From positions 1 to 5,016 of the forward strand of contig JAUPLM010000145.1 in NCBI GenBank assembly GCA_030836965.1: a stretch of 5,016 nt of DNA, in the 5' to 3' direction. Positions 1 to 5,016 of this stretch are shown here, one piece after another (within the stretch, counting starts at the first letter, position 1; each line of letters opens with the position of its first letter). This DNA comes from Thermodesulfobacteriota bacterium (lineage in GTDB: Bacteria; Desulfobacterota; Desulfobacteria; Desulfobacterales; RPRI01). Under the pieces are notes generated by a model that was not told where the DNA came from, ran no database searches, and worked only from the letters and a program-made list of their open reading frames with translations. The position numbers and the translations under genes were made by a program.

Positions 1-159
1 CTCCGGGCAATATTCGGAGAAAAGGCAGGTGATGTAAAAGATACTTCCCTGAGGGTTCCTCCCGGAGTTGACGGTATTGTAATTGACGCCAAGGTTTTTG
101 CCAGGCGCGGCATAGAGAAGGATGACAGGACCGTCCTTATAGAGGAGTCGGAGAAATAG
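1..159 (+). CDS. rpoB: RNA polymerase beta subunit, upstream part (5' incomplete), ending at an in-frame TAG
   Basis: This is the middle of beta, open at the left edge and read in frame 1 for 52 codons before TAG. The translation begins [20 protein letters not shown] and continues through a stretch rich in GVDG, VFARRG and IEES. It matches the conserved beta segment that in E. coli reads [19 protein letters not shown] and leads up to about residue 945. Beta forms half of the RNA polymerase active cleft in the cytoplasm. In almost all bacteria it is one chain of roughly 1,200-1,400 residues, so a stop here would leave a beta fragment lacking its C-terminal third. The downstream 405 codons continue the same protein in the same frame with no gap in the alignment. 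This is therefore either the 5' gene of a split rpoB or part of one gene crossed by an amber codon. The identity of the protein is very secure; its true 3' boundary is not. Confidence 0.93.
150..153 (+). promoter_or_regulatory. Candidate ribosome binding site for a restart at GTG 160
   Basis: GGAG lies six bases before the GTG that directly follows the amber codon, which is a normal Shine-Dalgarno spacing. A second purine-rich core, AGAGGAG at 141-147, is too far upstream to be the best site. The match could be chance, because this stretch codes for a Glu/Lys-rich segment and such codons resemble Shine-Dalgarno sites. It does make a coupled translational restart mechanically plausible. Confidence 0.4.
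157..159 (+). other. In-frame amber codon inside rpoB
   Basis: The frame-1 codons around it read gag aaa TAG gtg ctg gag. Aligned by eye to E. coli beta (IEEMQLKQAKKDLSEE against [19 protein letters not shown]), the stop takes the place of a single residue, Lys in E. coli, with no insertion or deletion on either side. It lies at the start of the beta i9/DR2 insertion (E. coli about 938-1042). A one-base change from AAG or CAG would create it. No other in-frame stop interrupts the visible rpoB or rpoC coding sequence before the rpoB TAA at 1375. Natural split, readthrough or recoding, and sequence error all remain possible. Confidence 0.9.
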
Positions 160-1377
160 GTGCTGGAGAGAAACCGCGATGACGAGATCGCTGTTATTGA
201 AGAGATAGTCCGGGGGCAGATACAGGAAATATTAAAAGGCCAGATATGCATCACTCCTGTTAAAAAGGGCAAAAAGGTTATAATTGCAAAAGGTGACAAG
301 ATAGATTCCGGAGTACTTGCGGATGTGCCTGTTGCCCAGCTTGAAGGGGTTGTGTTGAAGGATGCAGGGATTACCGAGAAGCTGCACGATCTTCTTGAAA
401 AGTACAGGAATCAGCGCGATCTCTGCAGGCAGAATTTTGAAAAACAGATCAGCCGATACGAAAAGGGCGACGATCTTCCGCCGGGTGTTATTAAGATGGT
501 CAAAGTATATGTTGCCATGAAACGGAAGCTTTCCGTCGGCGATAAAATGGCGGGCCGGCACGGTAACAAGGGTGTGGTGTCAAGAATTCTTCCTCAGGAG
601 GATATGCCGTATTTTGAAGACGGGACCCCGGTCGATATGGTTTTAAATCCTCTTGGAGTTCCTTCACGAATGAACGTGGGGCAGATACTTGAAATTCATC
701 TGGGACGTGCGGCCAAAGGCCTGGGCGAGCAGCTGAATAAATTCATTGAAGAGAACAATATAAAGGCGCTTCGCGATAAGATTAAAAAAATATTTGCCGA
801 TCCTTCATTAAACAAAGCTGTTGGAAAAATGGATGATAAGGAGCTGTGTGATTTCGCTGCTTATTATAAAAACGGCGTTCACATGGCAACACCGGTTTTT
901 GACGGCGCAAAAGAGTCTGAAATCAAGGTTCTTCTGGAAGAAGCCGGATTATGTCCGACCGGCCAGGCTACGCTTTACGACGGACGGACCGGCAATTCCT
1001 TTAAGGGGAGAATTACTGTAGGAACCATGTACATGCTGAAGCTCCATCATCTTGTGGACGACAAGATCCATGCCCGGTCCATAGGCCCCTATTCGCTTGT
1101 CACTCAGCAACCGCTCGGAGGAAAGGCCCAGTTTGGAGGTCAGCGTCTCGGAGAAATGGAAGTATGGGCGATGGAGGCGTACGGAGCTGCTAACGCATTG
1201 CAGGAATTCCTGACCGTAAAATCCGATGATATGGCCGGAAGAACAAGAATGTATGAAAAAATAGTTAAAGGCCAGAACATGCTTGAACCAGGCATTCCCG
1301 AGTCTTTCAAGGTAATGACGAAAGAGTTGCAGAGCCTGGGTTTAGACATAACGCTTATCGAAGGGAATAAGGAGTAA
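160..1377 (+). CDS. rpoB: RNA polymerase beta subunit, C-terminal part (405 codons from GTG)
   Basis: This is the C-terminal third of beta. Residues 1-105 are the i9/DR2 insertion, with charged segments likely to form coiled coil. Then come the core blocks in order: [15 protein letters not shown] (residues ~110-124) and [12 protein letters not shown] (~127-138), then [20 protein letters not shown] (~155), [14 protein letters not shown] (~243), [19 protein letters not shown], and the [21 protein letters not shown] motif that meets beta'. The C-terminal LTVKSDD...MYEKIVKG...GIPESFKV segment packs in the clamp. These blocks hold the RNA-DNA hybrid and the beta-beta' interface. GTG 160 is chosen because it immediately follows the TAG and has GGAG six bases upstream; the first in-frame ATG (496) would already delete most of i9. 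If the amber codon is read through or is an error, this is simply the continuation of the upstream entry. The TAA end matches the normal beta C-terminus, and rpoC follows after three bases. Confidence 0.93.
1369..1374 (+). promoter_or_regulatory. Ribosome binding site of rpoC
   Basis: AAGGAG occupies the last two sense codons of rpoB and ends six bases before TTG 1381. It decides the rpoC start, since a TTG would otherwise be a weak choice. The site overlaps the end of rpoB and spans its termination region, so translation of the two genes is probably coupled. Confidence 0.8.
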
Positions 1378-1380
1378 AAT

Positions 1381-4300
1381 TTGGAAACCTTATACGATTT
1401 CTTTGCCAAACCTATTGATCCGAAACAGTATTCCGGAGTCAGAATTGCTTTGGCTTCATCCGAGCAGATCCGGCAGTGGTCTTTCGGCGAAATTAAAAAA
1501 CCGGAGACAATAAACTACCGGACTTTCAAGCCGGAAAGAGACGGGCTTTTCTGCGCAAAAATCTTCGGCCCAACCAAAGACTATGAATGCAACTGCGGCA
1601 AGTACAAGCGGATGAAGCACAGAGGAGTTGTCTGTGAAAAATGCGGTGTTGAGGTTATTCAGTCGAAAGTCCGCAGGGAAAGGATGGGGCATATCGAACT
1701 CGCCACACCGGTTGCCCACATATGGTTTTTAAAAAGCCTTCCCAGCAAGATAGGAAACCTCCTTGATCTGACATTAAAGAGCATGGAAAAAGTTTTATAC
1801 TTCGACAGCTATATAGTTCTGGATCCGAAAGATACCCCGCTTACGAAGTGTCAGCTTCTTTCTGATGACAAGTACCGCGAGGCAATAGAAACATACGGTG
1901 CAAAATTTGAAGCGGGAATTGGTGCTGAAGCCGTCAAGCGCCTGATGGAAGATATAAATCTTGATGCCCTTTATAAGGAGCTGAGGACCGAAATAAAGAC
2001 TACAAGCTCTGTCGCAAAAAGGCAGAAACTTTCAAAACGGCTTAAGATTGTCGATGCTTTCAGGCGTTCGGGAGTTAATCCGGTCTGGATGATAATGGAT
2101 GCGATTCCGGTACTGCCGCCCGATCTGCGCCCCCTTGTTCCTCTTGAAGGCGGAAGATTTGCGACATCAGATCTTAATGATCTGTACAGGAGAGTCATAA
2201 ACCGCAACAACAGATTAAAAAGACTTATCGATCTGAAGGCTCCCGATATCATTGTACGAAACGAGAAAAGAATGCTTCAGGAAGCAGTGGATGTCCTGTT
2301 CGATAACGGACGGCACGGCAGGGTTATTACCGGTACAAACAAGCGGCCATTAAAATCATTAAGCGACACCTTAAAAGGAAAACAGGGACGTTTCCGCCAG
2401 AATCTTCTCGGCAAACGCGTCGATTATTCAGGACGAACCGTTATCACAATCGGACCCAACCTGAGGCTGCACCAGTGCGGCCTTCCTAAAAAAATGGCGC
2501 TCGAACTTTTTAAGCCTTTCGTTTATTACCGTCTGGAGAAGAAAGGGCTCGTTTCAACGGTAAAGAGCGCCAAGAAGATGGTTGAACGGGAGATACCGGA
2601 AGTCTGGGATACTCTTGATGAGGTTGTTAAAGAATATCCTGTTATGCTTAACCGCGCTCCGACTCTTCATCGTCTTGGTATTCAGGCGTTTGAGCCGATT
2701 CTTATTGAGGGGAAAGCCATTCAGCTTCATCCTCTTGTATGTACGGCATTCAATGCCGACTTCGACGGCGACCAGATGGCTGTCCATGTTCCTCTTTCCG
2801 TGGAATCGCAGATAGAAGCACGCGTTCTGATGCTTTCAAGCAACAATATCCTTTCGCCGGCCAACGGAAGCCCGATTATTGTTCCGACGCAGGATATTGT
2901 TCTTGGAATCTATTACATGACAAGAGGAATTTCAGGCTCAAAGGGCGACGGCAAAATATTTGCCGGCCCTGCCGAGGTTCGTTCAGCATATGATTCAGGG
3001 TCCATAGATCTTCATGCAAAGATAACTGTCCGGATGGACGGGAAGCGCGTTAATACTACAACAGGCCGTATTCTGCTCTGGGAGATTATCCCCAAGGATA
3101 ATATTATCAGAATGAGCCACATACAGGTTTCTTCGGAAGAGGACACAAAATCGATTCTTGACAGGATCAGTAACGGCGAATCTTTTTCGAAGCTGGCAGT
3201 TGAGTATCCGGAAAATTCAGGGAAGGAGACGGACGGCGATATAGGCCTTTTGAGAAGGGAGGAGTTCAAGAGGATATTCAACGTCAGCGGGGCTGAAGCC
3301 GACAAGATTTTTTCTCTTGATGAAGGCGGAATAAGCGGGGCTGTTTTATCGGAAGAAAAATACCATATATTTCAGATTAATGAAAAAAGACCCGAGATTC
3401 CTTTTGATGCCGTCAACAGAGTTCAGGATAAAAAGTCTTTAAGGGATCTTGTCGAATACGCCTATAGAAATCTGGGCCCCAAGGCTACGGTTGTACTCGC
3501 GGACAGGCTCAAAGATATCGGTTACCGGTACTCTACAGAGGCCGGCCTTTCAATATCGATAGGCGATATGATCATTCCGGCGGCAAAAGAGGAGATAATC
3601 AGGAAAGCCGAAAGAAAAGTTTCGGAAATCGGCCGGCAGTATACCGAAGGGCTTATAACCCAGGGAGAGAAATACAACAAGGTAGTCGATATATGGGCGA
3701 AAGCGACCGATGATGTGGCCAATGAAATGATGGAGGCGATGAAGGTTGAACCCCTGAGAGACAGCAGCGGGGAGCCGGTTATGGATAAGAAGGGAAAGCC
3801 GGTTTACGAAGAAAGCTTTAACCCCATATACATGATGGCTGATTCCGGAGCAAGAGGAAGCAAGGACCAGATGCGCCAGCTGGCCGGTATGCGCGGTCTT
3901 ATGGCCAAACCGTCCGGGGAAATTATCGAAACGCCCATCAGCGCAAACTTCCGTGAAGGACTTTCCGTCCTCCAGTATTTTATCTCGACTCACGGCGCAA
4001 GAAAGGGTCTTGCCGATACCGCTCTAAAAACGGCAAACTCGGGATACCTGACACGAAGGCTTGCCGACGTTGCACAGGATTGTGTAGTTATGGAGAACGA
4101 CTGCGGCACAATGATGGGAGTTGATGTCGAGCCTCTTGTTGAAGGCGGGGAGGTTATTCAGCGCCTTGGCGAAAGAGTGCTGGGGCGTGTAGCGGTAGAT
4201 GATATTATTGATCCCTTTACGGATGATGTTCTTGTTAAAAAAGGTGATGAGCTTGATGAGAAGGCGGCGAAAAGAATAGAAGATGCCGGAATAACAAGCA

Positions 4301-5016
4301 TAAGAATCAGGTCTGTTCTTACATGCAAATCAAGACAGGGAGTATGTGCAAAATGTTACGGAAGGGATCTTTCTCACGGCGGCGCTGTTGAACTCGGACA
4401 GGCTGTTGGAATCCTTGCCGCCCAGTCGATAGGCGAACCGGGAACACAGCTTACGATGCGTACGTTCCATATCGGAGGCACCGCGAGCCGGAGGGTCGAA
4501 CAGGCGGATATCAGGGCAAGAGTCGATGGAACCATCAAATTTATCGACCTGCATGTGGTAAGAAACGCGGAAAACCAGTATATCGTAATGAACCGCCGTG
4601 GCGGTAAATTTACGATAGTGAGTGATACCGGCCGTGAGCTTGAAAGCTGTCCCGTTATTTACGGTGCGCACATAATGGTAAAGGATGGCCAGAAGGTTAA
4701 AGGACCTGATGCCGAAGCTGGAAGACCGGGCGATCTTCTCGCGACCTGGGATCCGTTTACAACCCCCATCATTACAGAGGTGGATGGCACGGTTAAATTC
4801 GGGGATATTGTTCCCGGCAAAACAATGAAGGAGAAGGTCGACCCTGTTACCGGAAAGTCGAGCCGGACTATTATTGAATCGAAAGGCGCTGAGGTCAGGC
4901 CCAGGATTTCGATAAAAGATAAAGAAGGCAAAACCGCTAAACTTCCGAAATCATCAGGAATGGCCCGTTATATTCTTCCGATAGATGCGGTATTGATGGT
5001 TGAAGAAGATCGGAAG
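1381..5016 (+). CDS. rpoC: RNA polymerase beta' subunit with an inserted parvulin-like domain (3' incomplete)
   Basis: This is the catalytic beta' subunit; 1212 codons are visible without a stop, running off the right edge. The TTG start is supported by the AAGGAG site and by the product [14 protein letters not shown], which matches the family N-terminus; there is no earlier start after the rpoB TAA. Domains in order: zinc ribbon with C70, C72, C85, C88; rudder/lid region around [15 protein letters not shown] (~308); the Mg-binding NADFDGD with D460, D462, D464, at the same numbers as E. coli; the parvulin-like insertion at 574-672; rim helices from about 735; second zinc site C908, C982, C989, C992; bridge helix around [20 protein letters not shown] (~869-888); trigger loop [10 protein letters not shown] with M1026, R1027, H1030; then SI3 from about 1037. 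Every E. coli landmark after the rim-helix hairpin is shifted by exactly +94 residues. I attribute this to about -13 before the insertion, +99 for it and +8 after the rim helices. Roughly the last 250-300 residues lie outside the window. All catalytic elements seen are intact, so the enzyme looks functional. Confidence 0.98.
3100..3396 (+). other. Parvulin/PpiC-type peptidyl-prolyl isomerase-like domain inserted in RpoC
   Basis: Residues ~574-672 of beta' have no counterpart in E. coli beta'. The flanks rejoin the family alignment cleanly: [12 protein letters not shown] before and [19 protein letters not shown] after, against GRAILWMIVPKG and LPYSIVNQALGKKAISKML. The insert follows the parvulin pattern: MSHIQV (H580), a helix ending NGESFSKLA (598-605), DGDIG (618-622, for the family GGDLG), an F629/F633 pair where E. 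coli parvulin has M and [11 protein letters not shown] (family F-L-G-xIS-P), and [11 protein letters not shown] with H662 (family GYHIIKV). From the first His to the GDLG motif it aligns to E. coli parvulin (Par10) with no gap. The usual active-site Cys is N612, so catalysis is uncertain. The role is unknown: it could isomerise prolines in RNA polymerase or bound factors, or serve only as a binding or folding module. Confidence 0.87.
4489..5016 (+). other. Beta' SI3 insertion in the trigger loop (3' incomplete)
   Basis: After the trigger-loop motif [14 protein letters not shown], beta' departs into a long segment instead of closing the loop. It aligns with the start and middle of E. coli SI3 (943-1130), sharing the pattern VPYGA / [30 protein letters not shown], and a C-terminal YILP. 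SI3 is built of sandwich-barrel hybrid motifs and is found in proteobacteria and several other Gram-negative groups. In E. coli it moves with trigger-loop folding and affects pausing and cleavage. Its presence supports the Gram-negative assignment of this window and shows that the parvulin-like domain is an addition to, not a replacement of, SI3. Confidence 0.85.

Follow-up and report, generated by a model that had tools for sequence, protein, structure and literature searches.

A parvulin-fold domain inserted in RNA polymerase beta' of most sampled Desulfobacterales

Why would a parvulin, a member of a prolyl isomerase family, be built into the catalytic subunit of RNA polymerase (RNAP), and what could it do there? 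The question is raised by a 5,016-nucleotide stretch of DNA (hereafter the window; contig JAUPLM010000145.1 of assembly GCA_030836965.1, positions 1 to 5,016) from a Thermodesulfobacteriota bacterium, whose draft genome comprises 2.14 Mb in 442 contigs and is 63.6% complete. A sequence-only reading of the window had claimed that a parvulin-type prolyl isomerase domain is embedded in RNAP beta', the product of rpoC, at 3100-3396, near the secondary channel and with RpoC sequence intact on both sides. Two features are at issue:

1381..5016, + strand: rpoC, RNAP beta'; TTG start, 1212 codons seen, cut by the window end (open frame and TIGR02386)
3097..3393, + strand: inserted parvulin domain (PpiC-type peptidyl-prolyl isomerase, PPIase), RpoC residues 573-671 (alignment break, Pfam profiles and predicted fold)

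A parvulin-type insert within beta'

The rpoC frame scored 1444.5 bits against TIGR02386, the RpoC equivalog model (cut-off 963.5), and its catalytic motif NADFDGDQM is intact. Alignment to E. coli-type beta' falls into two stretches, one running up to query residue 572 (E. coli 585) and the other resuming from query 673 (E. coli 587), with an extra piece of about 99 residues, in frame, flanked by the counterparts of E. coli beta' 585/586 and 587. This alignment bears out the insertion point and the intact RpoC flanks proposed earlier; the insert itself also stands, its span being one codon off the claimed one at each end. A piece of 130 amino acids passed the cut-offs of three rotamase families, PF13616 (36.6 bits, cut-off 22.5), PF00639 (34.4, cut-off 21.7) and PF13145 (31.2, cut-off 27); with the whole RpoC protein, PF13616 and PF00639 were still above cut-off and PF13145, at 26.3 bits, fell slightly below its own. 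The closest solved structures by sequence in the PDB are parvulins, namely 2m08 (NmPin), PrsA, SurA and Pin1, and the modelled insert has a predicted beta-alpha3-beta-alpha-beta2 arrangement, judged from its strands, its helices and its PDB matches to PrsA and Pin1. Both the Pfam profiles and this predicted parvulin-like fold agree with the identity first proposed for the domain.

With the PpiC, PrsA, SurA and Pin1 parvulins (PF00639, PF13616) the insert shares the profile match, the predicted fold and, in most members, the dual histidines and aromatic pocket. It differs from them in being embedded in beta', in having mostly Ser at the catalytic Cys/Asp position, and in six extra residues, which follow the second pocket phenylalanine and are lacking from the stand-alone Desulfobacterales parvulins with which it was compared:

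3280..3297, + strand: about six additional residues directly after F633 (six-residue gap against the stand-alone parvulins of the order)

The ten stand-alone parvulins of the order that were screened look exported, unlike the RpoC insert. Pin1/Ess1 is a parvulin that acts on RNA polymerase II, so that a parvulin working with an RNAP is common to both cases; Pin1, however, is a separate phospho-specific protein, whereas the parvulin of beta' forms part of the polymerase subunit itself.

Lineage-specific inserts of beta and beta' are known, and most are HABAS (sandwich-barrel hybrid) or BEAN domains, with sLC domains also found (PMC11515920, 2024). The parvulin insert resembles such inserts of beta', including SI3 of E. 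coli and cyanobacteria, in being an in-frame, lineage-restricted accretion, but apparently differs in having an enzyme-type fold, its Pfam and PDB matches being to rotamase/parvulin. In the main text of that survey of beta/beta' inserts the terms parvulin, rotamase, isomerase, PpiC and Desulfo- do not occur, nor do rotamase, parvulin or isomerase in the passages seen of a 2026 survey of domain insertions (PMC13114784). Our literature search, outside which the surveys of Lane & Darst 2010 and Iyer et al. 2004 fell, returned no description of a parvulin insert in RpoC. The insert is thus apparently undescribed in the literature that we searched, and an earlier catalogue entry is possible. Implicitly, it is already catalogued through automated annotation: the precomputed Pfam domains of public RpoC entries include rotamase, and two fragments are titled 'peptidylprolyl isomerase, partial'.

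Where the insert sits on the polymerase can be judged from two comparisons. The cyanobacterial RpoC2 profile begins at query residue 678 (profile position 3), and therefore the end of the insert coincides with the start of RpoC2; the last query residue matched by the RpoC1 profile is 559 (profile position 561 of 619), and the 58 positions beyond are unaligned, leaving the RpoC1 end unplaced. The cyanobacterial RpoC1/RpoC2 split and the insert thus share a site, with a chain break there and a domain insertion here. In the cryo-electron microscopy structure the split lies in a surface loop of RNAP between two helices (PMC10120043), which suggests that the insert is likewise exposed at the surface. 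The second comparison concerns the residues that follow:

3430..3435, + strand: K684-K685, equivalent to E. coli beta' K598/K599, at the start of the helix reaching site 1 for guanosine tetraphosphate (ppGpp) (ungapped alignment)
3481..3504, + strand: K701 to D708, equivalent to E. coli ppGpp site-1 residues K615 and D622 (ungapped alignment)

In E. coli, DksA lies 6-10 Å from K598/K599, and the helix ends at K615, which contributes to ppGpp and omega binding (PMC7676912). K684/K685 come 11 residues past the insertion point, a position that supports the earlier claim of a location near the secondary channel, and the K615 and D622 residues are identical in the window RpoC. In a member of another order (L131, genome G476) the loop at the insertion site is about nine residues longer and holds no parvulin; therefore the site tolerates other insertions.

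Distribution and history in the order

Among 59 genomes, the window's own counted, 51 have the domain within a frame of at least 900 codons, and eight lack it in such a frame (G010, G013, G015, G021, G026, G030, G039, G044). The sequence-only reading had been prepared to give way if the insertion were absent from all close relatives; an RpoC-sized frame carries it in most of them. In a larger sample of the class (291 genomes, searched with RpoC plus insert), each of the 150 RpoC matches listed spans the insert; seven come from genomes that consist of a single contig (G018, G158, G198, G231, G236, G271, G275). A local assembly artefact is ruled out by this recurrence in 51 of 59 genomes and in the seven one-contig genomes. 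A further 103 genomes matched at 2.6e-61 or better; in some of them the insert was seen separately (for example G014, G017, G028, G032, G043, G046, G053, G183 and G266), and the rest were judged by score alone. RpoC is without the insert in nine (G013, G026, G030, G068, G107, G188, G247, G264, G279). In the remainder, RpoC of G159 is split over several frames, 21 scores were too weak to judge (part of the insert is visible in one of these, G190) and seven genomes had no match. A profile of the insert only, at a threshold of E 1e-12, matched 254 of the 291 genomes. A few of these matches must be stand-alone parvulins, certainly those of G013 and G264, whose RpoC has no insert. The insert occurs in at least 54 family codes of the order, counting listed rows.

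Outside the order the picture is different. In a sample of the phylum (198 genomes, 191 from other orders), none of the 143 RpoC matches listed for other orders covers the insert, all of them starting at query residue 127-132, and the insert-only profile gave, among the matches listed for the 191 genomes, none in a frame longer than 652 amino acids. Presence throughout the phylum is ruled out as far as it was sampled, since the other-order RpoC matches listed begin past the insert. It is therefore a lineage-specific insert of beta', in frame, found in one lineage and absent from outgroups in other orders of the same phylum. Beyond the phylum the evidence consists of solved RNAPs and a protein search (best 120 of 153 matches). 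A second protein search, from a divergent query, gave five matches. The names on relatives, from protein matches and 46 loci, are Desulfobacterales, Desulfobacteraceae, Desulfosarcina and Desulfatibia, along with the broader Deltaproteobacteria, Proteobacteria/Pseudomonadota and Thermodesulfobacteriota. Going by these names, the order is Desulfobacterales, which includes many sulfate reducers, and most of its sampled members have the insert.

To trace the history of the insert, we used a tree of the RpoC flanks with the insert removed (73 rows, being the fetched loci and the window, with other protein-search entries omitted; 494 columns), in which many forks are weakly supported and L063 is a long branch. 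The trait changes four times on this tree, compared with 13.9 times under shuffled labels, and well-supported branches force three changes. The short loop of families f5 and f63, which branch at the base of the order, resembles that of the outgroups, and for this reason the simplest reading is one gain after f5/f63 followed by two or three losses. The losses would be those of G068 and of G026 and family f22, the latter pair in one event or two. In G068 (locus L064), 93 codons are cleanly missing and the flanking codons are nearly as in the insert-bearing G031 and G283. This RpoC, naturally domain-free and nested within an insert-bearing genus, provides a ready-made functional comparison.

Active-site residues and selection

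Five positions of the insert could be read onto parvulin alignments with Pin1 numbers, which we take to be as follows:

3118..3120, + strand: H580, first histidine of the dual-His motif (presumably Pin1 H59; alignments)
3214..3216, + strand: N612, catalytic Cys/Asp position (presumably Pin1 C113; faces D of 2m08 and PrsA)
3265..3267, + strand: F629, proline pocket (presumably Pin1 M130; alignments)
3277..3279, + strand: F633, proline pocket (presumably Pin1 F134; alignments)
3364..3366, + strand: H662, second histidine (presumably Pin1 H157; alignments)

Our alignment held 230 RpoC rows, 215 with the insert and 15 without, and residues were counted over the 84 non-redundant inserts left among the 215 by an 80% identity cut. 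The first histidine is conserved in 70 and the second in 71; 64 inserts, that of the window included, have both. The F629 position is Phe in 72 and Leu in eight, the F633 position Phe in 71 and Tyr in ten, and the proline pocket is intact in 79. Mean conservation is 3.04 bits over the six active-site columns and 2.17 over the whole insert, the former value being reached by 583 of 100000 random draws, and the two histidines rank 15th and 11th in conservation among the 99 insert columns. Because the catalytic Cys/Asp position holds Asn here and mostly Ser elsewhere, we speak of a parvulin-fold domain and not of an active PPIase.

Selection on the insert was gauged from the ratio of nonsynonymous to synonymous rates (dN/dS) in nine relatives of the genus, the window row being absent; 26 of 36 pairs were scored and ten saturated pairs dropped. 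The ratio is 0.08-0.21 in 23 of the 26 pairs, many of these 23 having dS above 1, and 0.36-0.45 in three pairs among G002, G001 and G008, the relatives closest to the window. By this measure the insert is under purifying selection. Its length is near-constant, at 98 counted columns in 181 of the 215 insert rows, near-copies included. G001 lacks both histidines and G008 the first, and therefore constraint on the function of the domain may be easing close to the window. At L108 (G046), L109 (G053), L110 (G014) and L111 (G043) the insert is longer, with additional stretches; all of these except L109 have lost at least one of the two histidines, which would look like degeneration or specialization of the domain in some lineages.

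Candidate roles of the domain

We tentatively favor, at somewhat less than an even chance, a role as a tethered proline-peptide-binding (prolyl-isomerase-like) arm, perhaps weakly catalytic. Next to the helix that connects the secondary channel with the ppGpp/omega site, this arm would dock a partner in transcription or remodel it. Candidate partners would be factors such as NusG or Rho, or an RNAP subunit that is nascent or being assembled. We infer all three elements, namely the peptide binding, the residual catalysis and the partner. Such a tethered module is suggested because the pocket and histidines are mostly kept, the Cys/Asp residue is not, loss is tolerated and selection is purifying. 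An environmentally important order thus retains an enzyme-type fold in its catalytic RNAP subunit and also includes relatives that naturally lack the domain, which makes it directly testable whether a polymerase can use prolyl isomerization, or the docking of proline peptides, from the inside.

Several observations weigh against a peptide-binding arm. One or both histidines are absent from 20 of the 84 inserts, close relatives of the window included, and the Cys/Asp position is mixed (Ser in 45, Gly in 12, Ala in nine, Asp in five, Thr in four and Asn, as in the window, in three). In conservation that position ranks only 52nd and the L122-type position 39th, and the pocket residues may be conserved for the fold alone. 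Median pair identity is 0.35 for the insert compared with 0.78 for the flanks, and dN/dS of the insert is about 2-13 times that of the flank. Some inserts have diverged, since PF00639 alone detects the RpoC insert in 11 of the 17 genomes that have one. The loss of the domain in two or three lineages speaks against an indispensable role, and a 571-residue model of the insert with the beta' core reached a pLDDT (predicted local distance difference test) of 58.4, too poor for placing the domain on RNAP.

It is unlikely, in our judgment, that RNAP of a whole order of sulfate reducers contains a functioning prolyl isomerase which, at the secondary-channel mouth, acts as a switch for a transcription factor or an RNAP loop, or recruits it, and so couples proline isomerization to DksA/ppGpp control. 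We are equally doubtful of a cis-acting foldase that would isomerize prolines of beta' or other RNAP subunits during synthesis and assembly and have little role in transcription. Parvulins are foldases, which speaks for such a role, as does the aggregation of RpoB, RpoC and RpoA in E. coli lacking all six cytosolic PPIases (PMC7353009). The RpoC copy may also be among few cytosolic parvulins: a hydrophobic N-terminal stretch was seen in all ten stand-alone loci of the order passed through a crude hydrophobicity screen, which is not a signal-peptide predictor (ten of 12 loci; L087 and L092 left out), and small PF00639 frames of 82-97 codons are present, among the matches listed, in four of 17 insert-bearing genomes, one with an internal stop. 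Because the stand-alone parvulins look exported and the small frames are few, the RpoC copy may, judging from PF00639 searches, often be the only cytosolic parvulin. However, the catalytic Cys/Asp residue is mostly substituted and histidines are lost in the 20 inserts mentioned, which would ill suit a foldase. Nor was a small parvulin making up for a missing insert found: no small PF00639 frame is among the matches listed for eight no-insert genomes (G068, G026, G030, G107, G247, G013, G188, G264), so that the domain is lost or absent there with no visible substitute. In one relative with a one-contig genome, a parvulin match (G198:C1:1679185-1679466) lies within an open frame of 3878 codons.

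We regard each of two further explanations as quite improbable. An allosteric or gating insert at the secondary-channel mouth would tune the action of DksA, Gre or ppGpp through the K598-K615 helix and bind no proline peptides. The insertion point, 11 residues ahead of residues that approach DksA so closely in E. coli (PMC7676912), and the unchanged K615 and D622 equivalents agree with gating, and cyanobacterial Si3, an insert lying over this binding site, provides a precedent (PMC10802570). Gating would not, however, require conserved parvulin active-site residues. DksA-type zinc-finger genes are found in 27 of 28 genomes and GreA in 26, irrespective of the insert, the misses being the window's own 64%-complete genome for both and G247 for GreA; this differs from a trade-off like that of cyanobacteria, and the gene content of the 28 genomes gives no sign that the insert replaces DksA or GreA. 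Alternatively, a parvulin may have entered a permissive loop on one occasion and been retained only because it folds and is harmless. The site does accept a chain break in cyanobacteria and another loop length in G476, and fast evolution of the insert and its two or three losses also fit a passive passenger, whereas the purifying selection, the near-constant length, the retention of both histidines in most inserts and the spread over at least 54 family codes argue against one.

The window also holds an rpoB frame ahead of rpoC, with an in-frame TAG stop at 157-159. Of five relatives, three (L179, L180, L181) have no stop at this site, and a search of the remaining two did not locate the stretch. 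The TAG is either a base-level error in the draft or a genuine lesion, and the insert in rpoC is unaffected.
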